From a virus: a stretch of DNA of 23,124 bases. Below the pieces are notes generated by a model. It was not told the DNA's origin. It searched no databases and was given only the letters and a program-made list of their open reading frames with translations. The translations under genes were made by a program, and so were the position numbers. The DNA lies in the IMG/VR virus record IMGVR_UViG_3300035459_000133, positions 1 to 23,124 of that record; one strand, 5' to 3'. Shown piece by piece: positions 3,481-23,124 of this stretch. Within the stretch, counting starts at the first letter, position 1. Each line of letters begins with the position of its first letter.

Positions 3481-3993
3481 TCAATTCACATCTACATTTA
3501 CACTTAAATCTCCATCGGTCATTTGTTGCGTTGGAGGATCTCCAATTCCCGGATGCGTATGGTTATTAAATAAATCTTTAAACGTATCAATAACTACTTT
3601 TCTAAATGTACCATCTTTGTTTCCAATAGAAACATTAGAAGTCGAATACACATTAATAATACCATTTTGATCAATTAAAACATCTCCAGAATTTACAGAA
3701 ATTGAAGGTTTACTGGTCCCCCAAAACAAAGTAACAATTCCTCCATTTATATCACCATCCGAAAATAATACTTGACAAATATCTCCTATATTAGGACCAA
3801 TAAAAACCCCGGTAGATAAAGAAGCTATTTTCAACCAACCTGTAACCACATCCTCTGGAGCGCCCGAAAGTTTAACTCTAACCAAATAATTATCTGGATC
3901 GTAATTAAAAACAGTTCCGCATTTTATAAATATCCTACTACCAAGGACATTTTCAGCGTGCTGCTTCATTAAATTTATTAATTTTTCAGACAT
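3481..3993 (-). CDS. Baseplate spike protein gpV-like (membrane-piercing tip)
   Basis: This 170-aa protein is the central spike of a contractile tail. The N-terminal OB-fold region spans about residues 20-95 and includes WLKIASLSTG and GDICQVLFSDGD, typical of gpV. A short repetitive beta-helix follows (residues ~97-140). The C-terminal part has HTHPG at residues 145-149; the paired His in an HxH turn is the established iron-binding apex motif of P2 and phi92 spikes. The gene lies between the hub (gpD-like) and gpW-like genes. I see no lysozyme or other fused enzyme, so this is a plain gpV-type spike. Confidence 0.93.
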   Translation of the reverse strand: MSEKLINLMKQHAENVLGSRIFIKCGTVFNYDPDNYLVRVKLSGAPEDVVTGWLKIASLSTGVFIGPNIGDICQVLFSDGDINGGIVTLFWGTSKPSISVNSGDVLIDQNGIINVYSTSNVSIGNKDGTFRKVVIDTFKDLFNNHTHPGIGDPPTQQMTDGDLSVNVDVN

Positions 3994-18979: not shown

Positions 18980-19322
18980 TTCTCAACCCAACTCCTAAAA
19001 TTTTAGCTTCTTCCGAAATAGTTGTGACAACAAGGCGTAAATTGCCTTTATCCCAGGCTTCTTTTCTAACCAGCTGCAGTTCGCGAACTAAACGCTTTTG
19101 ATGTTCTGCAATATCTTCGTAATAACATTCGCGCCACTCATCTTCTGCTTCATGGATGCAGCTATTAATCGTAAGCGCCGTAACTTTACCGCCTTTAATG
19201 TTTGTAATTCCTTTCTCAAAGAGGATATCAACGATTTCTGCAGTAGTCCTTCCCTTCAACCTAAGATCTGCAATTAACGCCTTGTGCTTGAACTCAGCCG
19301 TTCCTTTAAGGCGTTTAGGCAT
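18753..19322 (-). CDS. terS: Terminase small subunit
   Basis: The product binds packaging sites and hands DNA to TerL. I choose ATG 19322-19320 (MPKRLKGTAEFKHKAL, 189 aa) because it begins 10 bases after the HTH gene stop and matches the usual start of this family. In-frame ATGs at 19364 and 19352 would add 14 and 10 residues and overlap the upstream gene; the ribosome-binding site is weak for all three. An N-terminal HTH-type part covers about residues 10-55 (IADLRLKGRTTAEIVDILFE), a central helical oligomerisation part follows (QKRLVRELQLVRKEAWDKG), and the C-terminal ~75 residues lie opposite TerL frame codons 1-75. The C-terminal end is Gly/Thr/Ser-rich. Confidence 0.83.
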   Translation of the reverse strand: MPKRLKGTAEFKHKALIADLRLKGRTTAEIVDILFEKGITNIKGGKVTALTINSCIHEAEDEWRECYYEDIAEHQKRLVRELQLVRKEAWDKGNLRLVVTTISEEAKILGVGLRNDSQKQEPGQKLIGSDEQQLIGNLLREAIVEAARRGVKLPTAEYTDADFRNITGEETGNLDTTSASIAGDTKPSG

Positions 19323-19332
19323 CTTTTCAAAT

Positions 19333-19551
19333 TTAAACCCTACTCTTTTCATCAGATGGCCCATCTAGCCAGAAATAAATACTTGTTTTAAAAATCACAG
19401 ACAAACGCAAAGCCGCTTCTGCACTGATAACGCGTTTATCATGCAAAAGAGCAGAAACATGCTGACGGGAATAGCCAAGGTCGTTAGCCAGATCCTCAAC
19501 CGACATGTATTTTTCCTGCATTTTTTCTCGCAATTTACTGCCAGGGCTCAT
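19333..19551 (-). CDS. HigA-like XRE-family HTH regulator (no toxin partner)
   Basis: This 72-aa protein has a HigA/VapI-like helix-turn-helix at about residues 17-40 (SVEDLANDLGYSRQHVSALL), then VISAEAALRLSVIF and YFWLDGPSDE, where HigA proteins have 'tpefWLnlQ'. It is shorter than typical HigA (about 100 aa). The start has a good ribosome-binding site (GAGG, 5 bases before the ATG). It is the first gene of the minus-strand late operon, so it is well placed to control terminase and head genes or itself. No HigB-like toxin gene lies next to it. Its promoter appears to overlap a palindrome and a TGTAACA heptamer just upstream. Confidence 0.83.
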   Translation of the reverse strand: MSPGSKLREKMQEKYMSVEDLANDLGYSRQHVSALLHDKRVISAEAALRLSVIFKTSIYFWLDGPSDEKSRV

Positions 19552-19565
19552 TTTAGCCTCGAAAA

Positions 19566-19581
19566 CGTTTCACATGGAACA
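19566..19581. promoter_or_regulatory. parS-like palindromic operator candidate
   Basis: The 16-mer CGTTTCACATGGAACA matches 13 of 16 positions of the ParB-box consensus TGTTTCACGTGAAACA. It sits immediately upstream of the HTH gene ribosome-binding site, at the expected transcription start of its promoter, so an operator for self-regulation is at least as likely as a partition site. No ParA or ParB gene is seen in the window. Confidence 0.4.
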
Positions 19582-19582
19582 C

Positions 19583-19591
19583 ATTGTAACA
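19583..19591 (-). promoter_or_regulatory. Extended -10 promoter of the HTH/late operon (candidate)
   Basis: On the minus strand the sequence is TGTTACAAT: a TGn extension followed by TACAAT, five of six matches to TATAAT. No good -35 lies at 16 to 18 bases, which an extended -10 can tolerate. The start would fall inside or next to the palindrome at 19566-19581, 25 bases before the HTH gene. It coincides with a TGTAACA heptamer, so a heptamer-binding protein could block it. Confidence 0.42.
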
Positions 19592-19791
19592 TCCAGAGGA
19601 CATTGAAACTAGGATTTTTTAGCCAGAGGGGCAAAAACTGCTGGAAAACACATAAAACCAGTGGTGAATGTGAAGGAGACATTTGGATTTCTGTAATTTT
19701 TCGGAGACATTCTAATTTTTGATTTTTACGCGTTTTATTGGAAACCCGCGCGCGCACGCTGTAACAGTTCCTGTACCCCCAGTAACTACTA

Positions 19792-19940
19792 TTACCGGGG
19801 TTATCAAACGCGTTAACGCTTAAATATTGGATATTACTAGATTAAAAGATCAAATAGTTAGCGCGCTAGACTTTAAATTGAATTTTATATCTAATATTAA
19901 CGCGTTTGATTGTACAAATTAGCCGCCATAACCCCGGTAA
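19792..19940. repeat. Nested inverted repeat in the divergent control region
   Basis: The left arm is continuous: TTACCGGGGTTAT (19792-19804) merging into ATCAAACGCGTTAA (19803-19816), then AATATTGGAT (19823-19832). The right arm has ATCTAATATT (19889-19898), TTAACGCGTTTGAT (19897-19910) and ATAACCCCGGTAA (19928-19940). The 13-bp and 14-bp pairs are exact; the 10-bp pair has one mismatch. A 10-bp palindrome TAGCGCGCTA (19859-19868) lies at the centre. Confidence 0.85.
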
Positions 19941-20000
19941 ACACAGTATATGAGCTAAGTGATTGATTCTAAAGGGTTTATTATACATGAATGTGATAAT

Positions 20001-20018
20001 AATATTAAACGCTTGATT
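20001..20018 (+). repeat. Degenerate third copy of the inverted-repeat element
   Basis: AATATTAAACGCTTGATT repeats, with two small changes, AATATTAACGCGTTTGATT at 19893, in the same orientation and 108 bases away. It lies about 40 bases before the start of the plus-strand gene, where a DNA-binding protein could regulate it. Confidence 0.6.
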
Positions 20019-20055
20019 TTGAATTATAAATGGTCGTACACTATTACGTAAATAT

Positions 20056-20457
20056 ATGAGTAAAAACAATAACATACAAAAACCGTGGCAAAGGTGGCTT
20101 AGACCACGGGCGCGCGACTATGTAAACGGCTGGACAATCGAATACCAACGGCGTTGGAAAAGATGGGCAGTTATGTTAAATCGTCCTTATGAAGTTAGGG
20201 CGGTGTTTGAACGACGAGGGCAAGCGTACCGCTACGCGTTGACACATTTCACAGTGCAAGCAACGCGTAAGCTCTTTAACGGTCGATATTTCGAGCAGAT
20301 TCAAAATTTACCGCTTGAATTGGAAATAATGGCAAAACAATGCTTTGAAGAAGCATTTTTAGAAAACTATCGCAAACCGCGTAAAAAGAAACAAAAAAGT
20401 CAAAAAACTATAGAAAACGAGATAAAAACCACAACTGCAACATCTAACGACGTTTAA
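20056..20457 (+). CDS. Basic protein of unknown function
   Basis: This 133-aa protein is not recognised. The first half is rich in Trp and Arg (KPWQRWLRPRARDYVNGWTI, then EYQRRWKRWAVMLNRPYEVR), the middle has HFTVQATRKLFNGRYFEQIQ and a helix ELEIMAKQCFEEAFLENYR, and residues ~106-118 are a lysine-rich run (KPRKKKQKSQK). The charge suggests nucleic-acid binding (inference). There is no clear ribosome-binding site before ATG 20056, so translation may be weak or leaderless, and the start is uncertain. It is a lone plus-strand gene between the nested inverted repeat and the iteron-like array, and could bind either. Confidence 0.65.
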   Translation: MSKNNNIQKPWQRWLRPRARDYVNGWTIEYQRRWKRWAVMLNRPYEVRAVFERRGQAYRYALTHFTVQATRKLFNGRYFEQIQNLPLELEIMAKQCFEEAFLENYRKPRKKKQKSQKTIENEIKTTTATSNDV

Positions 20458-20520
20458 CATTAAAATATACTTAATAATTCCCCAAACTTGCCCAAAACCA
20501 GACAAAAGGGTACATTTAAA

Positions 20521-20926
20521 AAAAAACGGTATTTATCAACGCTGTAACAAAATGAAAATCAAAAAAACCTTTATACATCATTTGTGTAACAAAATGACCA
20601 AAGCGAATAAAAAACCGTTACAAAAAGCGTTACATAGCTAATGCGTTGATTAATAAGGATTTTTTTATTAGCTGTAACAATGTAACAATAAATATATATA
20701 ATAATACATATTTTTTTTTTTAGGGTGGCTAGAAACAACGTACATTTTTTTGTAATTTTATAAAAATGTTTTTTCATGAAAAAAAATCGTAACATTGTAA
20801 CAATTGTTACACAATTGATAAATAAAGCGTTTTTTTAAAAAAATTGTAACACGTTTTGTTACACAATTGATAAATAAAGCGTTTTTTTTAGGATTTGTTA
20901 CACATTTGATAAATAAAGGTTTTTTC
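20521..20926. repeat. Iteron-like array with AT-rich core (candidate replication origin)
   Basis: Three direct copies share TGTTACACAATTGATAAATA plus AAAG and a T-run: they begin at 20804, 20856 and 20895 (the third with one change in the core). Two inverted copies begin at 20521 and 20562, and a degenerate direct copy spans about 20628-20666. The copies flank an AT-only stretch around 20688-20721. Copies are spaced 52 and 39 bases apart on the right. Unit plus heptamer sharing (TGTTACA) points to recognition by one protein; the array lacks CRISPR-like uniform spacing. Confidence 0.78.
20796..20811. repeat. Perfect 16-bp TGTAACA palindrome
   Basis: TGTAACAATTGTTACA is its own reverse complement and joins two of the heptamers; the second heptamer begins the direct iteron copy at 20804. 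A looser pair (TGTAACA, 5 bases, TGTTACA) lies at 20845-20863. These are the likely primary sites for a dimeric binding protein. Confidence 0.75.
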
Positions 20927-20940
20927 CGCCCATTTTTGGT

Positions 20941-21021
20941 GAATTGTAAAAAAGGTATAGATCGCAACAATAAAGTAGCGCAGGCAACAAAGTGCTTAGA
21001 TCTATACCTTTTTAACAATTC
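20941..21021. repeat. Long-armed hairpin (23-bp inverted repeat)
   Basis: The arms at 20941-20963 and 20999-21021 are complementary at 22 of 23 positions and enclose a 35-base loop. The loop contains two copies of GCAACAA. The outer ends are GAATTG and CAATTC, and the inner stem includes GGTATAGATC. It abuts the iteron-like array. It could be a cruciform, a stable RNA or a small mobile remnant; the arms are too AT-rich for a standard terminator. Confidence 0.82.
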
Positions 21022-21153
21022 CTAAAATTGACGATTTTTATTAAATAAATATTAAAATAAATCGCTCAAAATCGCCCCTTTGGCTGCTATCGCGTTACAA
21101 AAACCTCAATAAATCGCTTCTAAAATATTTTTAAAAATAAATGTAAAATAATG

Positions 21154-21182
21154 TTGCAAAATGTTGTAGTATGTGCTAGACT
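21154..21182 (+). promoter_or_regulatory. Early promoter P1 (candidate)
   Basis: TTGCAA (21154-21159) and TAGACT (21177-21182) are separated by 17 bases, each with four matches to the sigma-70 consensus. It would start a transcript near 21189, at the left side of the structured leader. Confidence 0.5.
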
Positions 21183-21187
21183 ATAGT

Positions 21188-21290
21188 TGTAAGTGAGTAA
21201 ATGTTTCAAACCCTGATCGGTGTGCCTGGCATCTAAAACTTACAGAGTGTGTCCCGCTGGCTAGGCTGGCGGAACAGAGAAGCAAACTAA
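21188..21290 (+). ncRNA. Structured leader / small RNA candidate between the two promoters
   Basis: TGTAAGT (21188-21194) pairs with ACTTACA (21238-21244). A second hairpin, CCGCTGGCTAGGCTGGCGG at 21254-21272, forms an 8-bp stem with two wobble pairs and a 3-base loop. The segment is much richer in GC than its surroundings. Nothing in it resembles a tRNA, and I know no riboswitch that matches. Confidence 0.4.
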
Positions 21291-21293
21291 TAG

Positions 21294-21322
21294 TTGCAAT
21301 AAGTTGTGAAGTGTGGTATAGT
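21294..21322 (+). promoter_or_regulatory. Early promoter P2 (candidate)
   Basis: TTGCAA (21294-21299) and TATAGT (21317-21322) lie 17 bases apart; the -10 matches five of six positions. The spacer (GTTGTGAAGTGTGG) resembles that of P1 (GTTGTAGTATGTGC), so the two look like duplicated promoters. The expected start is about 21329, 80 bases before the first early gene. Confidence 0.58.
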
Positions 21323-21406
21323 ATTTATAGATGTAACGAGATTTAAATCAATCAAACAATGATTACGAGCGCAAGCGAGAATCATAACAAAAAAGGAGAT
21401 AGAAAA

Positions 21407-21907
21407 ATGAAACTTAAAATTACAATTAATGATGATTTAGCAAAACACGAATTATTTGTAAAAATAGCAATACTAGAAAGTTATTTACAATGGTTAAAGT
21501 TATCAGAAAATGAAGATGTAACTACATTAGATCCTGACAATTGGTATCAAGGCAATGGGTGTGAATGTGGTTGCGATGTTATCAACCAAGTGTCTAATGA
21601 TAATACACCCATTTATTATAGCGATATTCGCGACCTTTGGTATTTATATAGTGACGATTTTGAGCAAGCTTTTGAAGACTCCGGCTGTTATTCAAAAAAG
21701 CCACAAAATTATCAACAAATATGTATTTTCATGTATTTAGAAAGCGTTGGTCATGAATTTGCTAGAACTTTAGAAAGTGAATTAAATACATTAAAAGATC
21801 AAGACGAAATGACGTTTGGTTTTTTATATAATTCTTTTGTTGTCCTTGATGAGCGATTATCAGAAGAGTTGCAATCTTTAAACAAGGAGGACTCAATCAA
21901 TGGCTAA
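21407..21907 (+). CDS. Acidic protein of unknown function, first gene of the early operon
   Basis: The start is ATG 21407 (MKLKITINDDLAKHELF), with AAGGAG eight bases upstream; an earlier in-frame ATG at 21359 has no ribosome-binding site and lies in the leader. The 166-aa product has about 32 acidic against 12 basic residues. Notable segments are WYQGNGCECGCDVINQVSND (residues ~46-65, four Cys nearby), PIYYSDIRDLWYLYSDDFEQ (residues ~68-87) and AFEDSGCYSKKPQNYQQ. No family is recognised. The strong negative charge resembles DNA-mimic anti-defence proteins only in composition, not in any motif. It overlaps the following microprotein by 8 bases. Confidence 0.8.
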   Translation: MKLKITINDDLAKHELFVKIAILESYLQWLKLSENEDVTTLDPDNWYQGNGCECGCDVINQVSNDNTPIYYSDIRDLWYLYSDDFEQAFEDSGCYSKKPQNYQQICIFMYLESVGHEFARTLESELNTLKDQDEMTFGFLYNSFVVLDERLSEELQSLNKEDSING

Positions 21908-21974
21908 CATAATCAACAAACTTAAAGCGTACGAGCGTAAATTCAGAACCTGGCTAGAGAAAGTTATTTATTAA
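21900..21974 (+). CDS. 24-aa microprotein
   Basis: A strong AAGGAGG at 21884-21890 lies nine bases before ATG 21900. The frame encodes MANIINKLKAYERKFRTWLE plus KVIY and stops at TAA 21974. The peptide is basic and amphipathic-helical. The preceding gene's stop lies inside its first codons (8-base overlap), so translation is likely to be coupled. No family is known to me. Confidence 0.55.
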   Translation: MANIINKLKAYERKFRTWLEKVIY

Positions 21975-21995
21975 TCAAATAAGGAGATTAAAACA

Positions 21996-22268
21996 ATGCA
22001 AAATATAACAAATATGAAATATGTTTTCTCTTGTTATGAATGTATGAATCAATGTTGTGAAGAAGTGCAATATAGAAAATTAAACTCAAAAGAACAATAT
22101 TTTATTTGTTGTAAGAATGGCGGCATTGTAGAACTTACAATAAAAATGCTGTTGTTTGACTTACAAGAAAAACAAAATGCAATCGAATCTTTAAGCAATG
22201 CATTAGATAGACTTCAAGAAAAACATATTTTTAAATGTCCATTTCAAGAGGACTTAATCAATGATTAA
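21996..22268 (+). CDS. Cys-rich protein of unknown function
   Basis: This 90-aa protein has a ribosome-binding site (AAGGAG, 9 bases before the ATG). It contains C13, C16, C20, C21, C38 and C39 (SCYECMNQCCEE and FICCKNGG), so a zinc-binding site is plausible; a coiled-coil helix follows from about residue 48 to 75 (LLFDLQEKQNAIESLSNALD), and a last Cys (C81) near the end. It overlaps the next gene by 8 bases. Its role in the early operon is unknown. Confidence 0.72.
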   Translation: MQNITNMKYVFSCYECMNQCCEEVQYRKLNSKEQYFICCKNGGIVELTIKMLLFDLQEKQNAIESLSNALDRLQEKHIFKCPFQEDLIND

Positions 22269-22485
22269 CTTACACAACAAACCAGCATTACTAACAGCTA
22301 TCATTATCCGCGATTTAGACAAAGCTAACCGCATCAGGCGAATGCAACGCTTGCCACATGTACATTATGATGAGCTAGAAGTTGAACGCTTAAGCGCGAT
22401 CTGCCATGGGCTATTATGCGCTAAAGACTGGATTAAGCGCCTGGTTACAGAACAAGCTTTAAGCATGAGACATTATCAATGTTAA
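22261..22485 (+). CDS. Small protein of unknown function
   Basis: This 74-aa protein starts at ATG 22261, nine bases after GAGG, and overlaps the preceding stop by 8 bases, the same arrangement as the microprotein. It is helical and basic: PALLTAIIIRDLDKANRIRR near residue 8, then HVHYDELEVERLSAICHGLL and a C-terminal TEQALSMRHYQC. No domain is recognised. A regulatory or anti-host role would be speculation. Confidence 0.7.
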   Translation: MINLHNKPALLTAIIIRDLDKANRIRRMQRLPHVHYDELEVERLSAICHGLLCAKDWIKRLVTEQALSMRHYQC

Positions 22486-22673
22486 CCCATCCACGAAAAC
22501 TATTTATCGCTACAGGCTTGCTATTTTGCGCTGTAATAGCTGCCACGTTGCTTGATTTACCTATGGGCTGGTACTTTTCATTATTGGCTTTATCTGCAGG
22601 ATTATTACTTGGCAAGCTTATAGTTTTATGGGTTATTTATAAAATGAGGAAGGAAAATGAAAGTAAGAACTAG
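22479..22673 (+). CDS. Small membrane protein (two transmembrane helices)
   Basis: This 64-aa protein has two hydrophobic helices: residues ~8-27 (LFIATGLLFCAVIAATLLDL) and ~31-55 (YFSLLALSAGLLLGKLIVLW), then a charged tail KMRKENESKN. It lies in the early operon and overlaps both neighbours (7 and 17 bases). The upstream ribosome-binding site is weak, so translation probably relies on coupling. A superinfection-exclusion or host-membrane role is possible from position; a holin is unlikely because no endolysin gene is nearby. Confidence 0.7.
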   Translation: MLTHPRKLFIATGLLFCAVIAATLLDLPMGWYFSLLALSAGLLLGKLIVLWVIYKMRKENESKN

Positions 22674-22998
22674 AGTTATACACCCCGGTAAAATATTGCT
22701 AAACATGTTGGAAAAGGCAGGAATATCACAACATGCTTTGGCAAAACGCCTAGGGTTGTCTGGAACACAAATAAACTACGTTTGCCAAGGTAAGCAAGGG
22801 ATAAGTCCATTAATTGCGCTAATGCTCGCCCGCTTCTTTAAGACGACACCAGAACTGTGGCTTAATATGCAGAATGCTTGGAATCTATCGTATTACTACA
22901 AAAAGATAGAGAAACAGCTAGTTAGGATAAAACCATTGGATAAACGATTAGGGAGAAAAGGAAATGATAGTAAAACAAGAGCCAAAAACAAGAGGTAA
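22657..22998 (+). CDS. HigA-like XRE-family HTH regulator (no toxin partner)
   Basis: This 113-aa protein has the HigA-type layout: IHPGKILLNMLEKAGISQHA at residues ~8-27, a helix-turn-helix around residues 24-45 (LAKRLGLSGTQINYVCQGKQ), GISPLIALMLARFFKTTPEL and WLNMQNAWNLSYYYKK. The W-L-x-x-Q-x-x-W/Y-x-L pattern is a strong family mark. The C-terminal ~25 residues are lysine/arginine-rich and variable. The gene before it is a small membrane protein, not HigB. A good ribosome-binding site (GGAAGGA) precedes the ATG. It overlaps the next gene by 35 bases. Confidence 0.88.
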   Translation: MKVRTRVIHPGKILLNMLEKAGISQHALAKRLGLSGTQINYVCQGKQGISPLIALMLARFFKTTPELWLNMQNAWNLSYYYKKIEKQLVRIKPLDKRLGRKGNDSKTRAKNKR

Positions 22999-23124
22999 TT
23001 TACTAGTAACGCGCAAACGCGGCGAGAGTATTATATTAACAGGCTGTTTTGGCAGAATTGAAATAAAGCATGTAGGCTATAGGTGGGGACAGACAAGATT
23101 AATGATTAACGCCCCACTAGATGT
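22964..23124 (+). CDS. CsrA-family RNA-binding regulator, partial
   Basis: ATG 22964 opens a frame that runs off the right edge after 53 full codons. After an 11-residue leader (MIVKQEPKTRG) comes NLLVTRKRGESIIL, which matches the start of CsrA (LxLTRKxGExIxI). A middle FGRIEIKHVG and then TRLMINAPLDV align with the CsrA sequence (RIGInAPkdV). CsrA dimers bind GGA-containing RNA hairpins, usually at ribosome-binding sites. The usual RNA-contact arginine near the C-terminus (R44 in E. coli) is beyond the window. It overlaps the HigA-like gene by 35 bases. A phage copy may alter host or phage translation. Confidence 0.86.
   Translation, partial: MIVKQEPKTRGNLLVTRKRGESIILTGCFGRIEIKHVGYRWGQTRLMINAPLD

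Follow-up and report, generated by a model that had tools for sequence, protein, structure and literature searches.

The locus raises the question of what a set of oriented repeats, arranged around the least stable DNA of a phage fragment, could serve. The window, i.e. the whole stretch of DNA analysed here, is a linear virus record of 23,124 bases. Genes for packaging, head and contractile tail (terminase large subunit, portal, major head protein, sheath, baseplate) run leftward from 19.4 kb to position 1, and from 21.4 kb small genes follow rightward, mostly without assigned function and including a HigA/XRE-like regulator and a truncated CsrA-like gene. The repeat array is located near the switch between these groups, in a 900-bp gap bounded by ORF 20056-20457 on the left and the next rightward ORF (21359 or 21407) on the right, both of which point rightward. 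Two mechanically called minus-strand ORFs (20571-20795, 20758-21018) overlap the array, and their translations are of low complexity. Overall, two HigA/XRE-like regulators are encoded (19333-19551, minus strand; 22657-22998, plus strand), with no toxin partner recognised beside either. The CsrA-like gene (22964-23124; Pfam CsrA, E 1.3e-6) is truncated by the right contig end; apart from it, weak family matches at permissive thresholds were discarded as noise, as were the weak Rfam hits in the array region, which has no Rfam match. The features discussed below are as follows.

19792-19940: second non-coding element, conserved, with nested inverted repeats; putatively tied to the array
20056-20457, plus strand: ORF of 133 amino acids, candidate heptamer-binding protein; 60 bp separate its end from the array
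20518-20550, minus strand: unit 1, inverted (TTGTTACAGCGTTGATAAATACCGTTTTTTTTT); IHF-type site with one mismatch
20543-20687: left arm, heptamers at 20543, 20585, 20616, 20628, 20673 and 20681
20560-20592, minus strand: unit 2, inverted; IHF-type half weak (CATCAT), counterpart in the related contig L005 not recognisable
20628-20666, plus strand: unit 3, split, spacer 8 nt longer; perfect IHF consensus at 20639-20651 on the minus strand
20688-20787: heptamer-free centre; AT runs at 20687-20706 and 20708-20722, least stable 100 bp of the window starting at 20687
20788-20902: right arm, heptamers at 20788, 20796, 20805, 20845, 20857 and 20896
20804-20836, plus strand: unit 4, direct; IHF-type site with one mismatch
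20856-20888, plus strand: unit 5, direct, sequence identical to unit 4
20895-20927, plus strand: unit 6, direct, 85% identical to units 4 and 5; IHF-type site with one mismatch
20941-21021: strong hairpin with 23-bp arms and a 35-nt loop, located 14 bp to the right of unit 6

The repeats are genuine and far exceed what chance would give. The array spans about 410 bases and comprises five gap-free 33-bp copies and one split copy flanking the low-stability centre, the gap-free copies following the consensus TTGTTACA-NNN-TTGATAAATAAAG-NN-TTTTTT, with substitutions. In a leave-one-out PWM analysis, each gap-free copy scored 25-45 bits compared to 12-14 bits for the best site outside the array, and the best direct match within a 441-bp test stretch reached 33/33, where 200 dinucleotide shuffles gave at most 26; these scores rule out a chance repeat. 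Since the inverted pairs alone (best 28/33) did not exceed the shuffles (maximum 29), support for the inverted copies comes from the whole-window PWM. An earlier note on this DNA had described three direct, two inverted and one degenerate copy. The direct copies were recovered as units 4 to 6 and the inverted ones, in register on the minus strand, as units 1 and 2. The degenerate copy near 20628 is genuine as well, but split rather than intact, combining the heptamer CGTTACA at 20628 with a right half at about 20646-20666. Unit spacings are 42, 52 and 39, and the two arms are opposed.

Within the collections searched, the unit is indeed undescribed: the DNA from 19300 to 23124 has no relatives among 50,697 phage records, and a single IMG/VR contig is related. 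In a search of one phage and four bacterial genomes, the unit pattern was absent except for one match with two mismatches. Matches to TGNTACANNNTTGATAAATA in 36 IMG/VR contigs were set aside, each contig carrying a single such site and no array. Array DNA gave only two plasmid hits, both weak and of low complexity. Other relatives of the large terminase subunit (TerL) are distant (34-54%) and their inspected surroundings show no comparable array; some of these distant relatives were found on phage-sized plasmids. An alphaproteobacterial genome with distant head genes is GC-rich, and the 20-kb stretches read from it contain no TerL match; relatives of the 21407 protein are absent from viral contigs.

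A second layer of sites, overlooked in the earlier note, is formed by 12 heptamers of the type [T/C]GTWACA, six on either side of the heptamer-free 100-bp centre; the left part of the 33-bp unit is one of them. Exact TGTWACA occurs nine times in the 441-bp test stretch, where shuffles give an expectation of 0.25, and nine times in the remaining 22.7 kb. The heptamer spacings (42, 31, 12, 45, 8, 107, 8, 9, 40, 12 and 39) are not consistently helical; repeat spacing at plasmid iterons generally is (PMC5043065). The heptamer resembles the motif TGTWACAW from OmpR ChIP peaks in Salmonella, two of its copies preceding a prophage integrase (PMC3586657). The array could be regulatory, the heptamers acting as operators of a phage or host regulator (e.g. 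one of the two HTH proteins, or one of OmpR type) with promoters in or near the array. The region is flanked by the two HTH regulators, and two heptamers overlap with a promoter-like pair at 20674-20702. However, promoter-like sites are not in excess (11 compared to 9.0 in shuffles), and the last heptamer lies more than 400 bp from the start of the next rightward ORF.

Read on the opposite strand, the unit consists of an A-tract, a spacer of about 7-9 bases, TATCAA, four bases and GTA, which is the layout of an IHF site; this, too, had been overlooked. The IHF consensus is WATCAANNNNTTR, and the 5' half of the site is AT-rich (PMC7581858). We scanned both strands of the 23 kb with a strict definition (A6 upstream of WATCAR-N4-TTR, at most one consensus mismatch), which gave five matches, all inside the array and covering five of the six units, while a relaxed A5 form added three sites outside it. 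One match is perfect (unit 3), four show one mismatch, and unit 2 is weaker; as the unit copies share descent, the five matches are not independent events. The sites are thus putative IHF sites, named by their match to the consensus.

Heptamer boxes combined with an IHF site are also found in P1 parS, which consists of heptamer A-boxes, hexamer B-boxes and an IHF site (PMC5016525). The array might likewise be the partition centromere of a plasmid prophage, with heptamer boxes around IHF bends and a ParB-like binder. The small basic ORF that ends 60 bp short of the array and the phage-sized plasmids carrying distant TerL relatives would suit such a centromere. Nevertheless, a centromere needs no melting-prone centre, the phage shows no sign of being a plasmid, and partition is disfavoured because no ParA or ParB match was found within the fragment; we regard it as improbable.

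Measured over 50 bp and over 100 bp, DNA stability in the window is lowest in the centre. The earlier note had placed an AT-only core here and proposed helix stability as a check. Instead of one such core there are two AT runs, separated by a C at 20707, and the check came out in favour of the centre over 50 and 100 bp but not over 150 bp, where a late-gene stretch at 3968 falls below it. The centre also contains a GC-richer piece, AGGGTGGCTAGAAACAACG. This piece has a 19-bp exact match in another viral contig (L124:2295-2313), within the VGRVARNN-coding stretch of a helicase gene. This match was rejected as being at about the level expected by chance in a collection of that size.

The sole relative of the region, IMG/VR contig L005/G001, encodes a TerL with 86% identity and covers only the left half of the array. 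Its alignment reaches window position 20706, which equals L005 position 1, so that the contig breaks off within the AT core, which could reflect a genome end, low complexity or a recombination junction. Between 20518 and 20706, 34% of positions differ. Among the parts kept are the perfect IHF consensus of the central copy and the A-tract and ATCAA of unit 1. An AT-only run is present as well, with a different sequence, as expected if it were a melting element rather than a recognition core.

Five of the six left-arm heptamers are recognisable in L005, and in all five base 3 is altered (T to A or C). The remaining heptamer bases are kept at 27/30 positions, and of the three substitutions two turn C into T at base 1. 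The corresponding chance values are 0.004 for base 3 in 5/5 and 0.003 for 27/30 kept, both from post hoc tests. To judge from the aligned sequences, this concerted change suggests, as its simplest reading, a binding protein with shifted specificity; gene conversion between copies could be an alternative. A conserved host regulator would leave the loss of TGTWACA at 5/5 recognisable sites unexplained, and OmpR regulation is disfavoured because of this loss. Altogether, we consider a regulatory array rather unlikely.

A candidate for such a binding protein is encoded next to the array by ORF 20056-20457. Its product is small and basic and shares 46% identity with its L005 counterpart, compared to 85% for the putative small terminase subunit (TerS) and 86% for TerL; it has no family match and no relatives other than in L005. 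An AlphaFold model based on the two sequences shows a core of four strands plus a helix with a pLDDT of about 70-78 (mean 56). Fold searches with this model against PDB and BFVD gave nothing significant. The arm-binding domain of lambda Int (Z 3.0-3.8) and AP2 domains (among the top structural matches, Z 3-4), whose fold packs a three-stranded sheet against a helix, weakly resemble the model, with unrelated small sheets ranking alongside in both cases, and we treat this predicted likeness as a lead rather than an assignment.

The resemblance to the lambda Int domain, weak as it is in the model, would fit a lambda-type attP, in which a tyrosine integrase encoded beyond the fragment uses the heptamers as arm-type sites, IHF-type sites bend the arms and strand exchange takes place in the 100-bp centre. 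Two arms, opposed units and IHF-type sites within about 410 bp agree with this, the length being close to that of the Phi24B attP (350-427 bp, with near-equal arms; PMC7581858), and the L005 contig ends within the centre, as is possible at an attP/attL assembly branch. On the other side, the AT run of the centre lacks sequence conservation, the sole viral-contig match of the centre (19 bp) is at chance level, and the array is found at the terminase end of the late genes and not at the tail end. In addition, attP is disfavoured because no recombinase was recognised within the fragment, neither in the 2.2 kb rightward nor in the 20 kb leftward of the array. We consider attP unlikely, placing it first among the alternatives to an origin.

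Some 600 bp left of the array, between the XRE gene and the 20056 ORF, lies a second element that had also been overlooked. At 19792-19940 it contains nested perfect inverted repeats of 13 and 14 nt (TTACCGGGGTTAT and ATCAAACGCGTTAA), the outer pair of which is identical in L005, and the surrounding stretch (about 19745-19975) is better conserved than the array. The window has three occurrences of the pattern ATCAA(A)CGCNTTA, two in this element and one in the array centre (0.07 expected, for a pattern defined post hoc). Element and array may belong to one shared machine. Alternatively, the element may be a regulatory site upstream of terS or, given its distance of about 430-580 bp upstream of that gene, a packaging site. 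On the other side of the array, the hairpin folds as RNA with -34.6 kcal/mol (z -7.3) and was missed by a simple terminator scan.

Packaging has to be considered for the array itself, which would then be a cosB- or pac-like site upstream of terS whose repeats are bound by the small terminase subunit together with IHF. Lambda cosB has three TerS sites, one of them inverted, and an IHF site (PMC4669245), so that repeated sites with an IHF-type site are shared; moreover, 1.15 kb separate the array from the terS start downstream of it, and the L005 contig end falls inside the array. Yet a rightward gene and the better-conserved inverted-repeat element, nearer to terS, intervene, and a putative TerS with 85% identity in L005 is a poor fit to a concerted change of sites. 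Twelve heptamers are also more than any cosB layout is known to have. We rank packaging as the least probable of the readings discussed here.

A bending protein and repeated sites for a phage protein form a kit that is common to IHF-using origins, lambda-type attP, P1 parS and lambda cosB. Directly established are the sites, with their number, orientation and enrichment over chance, together with the IHF-type layout, the low helix stability at the centre and the concerted base-3 change in the left arm of L005, and the array is probably an assembly site for a DNA-wrapping machine. In such a machine, a phage-encoded protein, with ORF 20056-20457 as the candidate, would bind the TGTTACA heptamers of both arms, and host IHF or an IHF-like DNABII protein would bend every unit. 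The arms would wrap around the easily melted 100-bp centre, and binding and bending together would open the AT core for helicase loading, with replication as the presumed outcome.

A replication origin is the best single reading of the array, and the balance tips towards it because the low-stability centre is kept in composition and not in sequence. This reading is plausible rather than established, and we hold it tentatively because no initiator gene was recognised. Gene family searches recognised no initiator, helicase loader, primase, recombinase or ParA within the fragment, which agrees with the earlier statement that the window holds no replication gene. GC skew, suggested there as a further check, turned out to be uninformative: the minimum lies at about 19.6 kb, roughly 1 kb off the array, and the switch follows gene direction, as coding-strand third positions are G-rich in nearly all late genes. 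Skew was thus rejected as origin evidence. The proposed iteron-origin layout stands insofar as oriented sites surround the least stable DNA and an AT-only run is kept in L005. However, "iteron" does not look like the best name for a composite unit of IHF-type site and heptamer, arranged in opposed arms, from a kit shared with other systems.

In its most specific form, the proposal is a phage origin or recombination site in which compound IHF-heptamer units form mirrored arms around a melting core and are bound by a new small DNA-binding family encoded next door, its specificity changed in step between sister phages; as a whole, this combination is doubtful. The element is well organised and, as far as these collections show, unreported. 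As an origin, it would offer a compact test case for repeated architectural bending versus one bend driving strand opening, and the comparison of the two sister phages would amount to a natural experiment on changing specificity. An attachment site or a centromere would define the lifestyle of a phage group that has almost no relatives in public collections. In each case, a defined DNA can be tested together with one candidate protein.

Compared to known systems, the array shares heptamer boxes and predicted IHF bending with P1 parS (PMC5016525), but has several IHF-type sites where parS has one, a low-stability centre, no identified hexamer box and no ParA/ParB match within the fragment. With lambda cosB it has in common repeated protein sites, one inverted there, a predicted IHF bend and a position upstream of the terminase genes (PMC4669245), whereas its distance is greater, a rightward gene intervenes and its sites are far more numerous. 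Lambda and Phi24B attP likewise have two arms of repeated sites with IHF sites within a total of 240-430 bp (PMC7581858); unlike lambda-type attP, no recombinase was recognised near the array, and its AT-rich centre is not kept in sequence in L005. The iteron plasmids pSC101 and R6K (gamma ori) and E. coli oriC resemble it in combining repeated protein sites, a bending protein and an adjacent AT-rich opening element (PMC5043065, PMC10380432), and IHF acts together with Rep at the pSC101 and R6K origins (PMC5043065). IHF with opposed arms of initiator boxes is a known origin design, realised at oriC with DnaA boxes (PMC10380432); the arms of the array are opposed likewise. In contrast to IHF-using origins, the array is without a DnaA box (no TTWTNCACA), and in place of a single main IHF site a heptamer is fused to an IHF-type site in each of up to six units.
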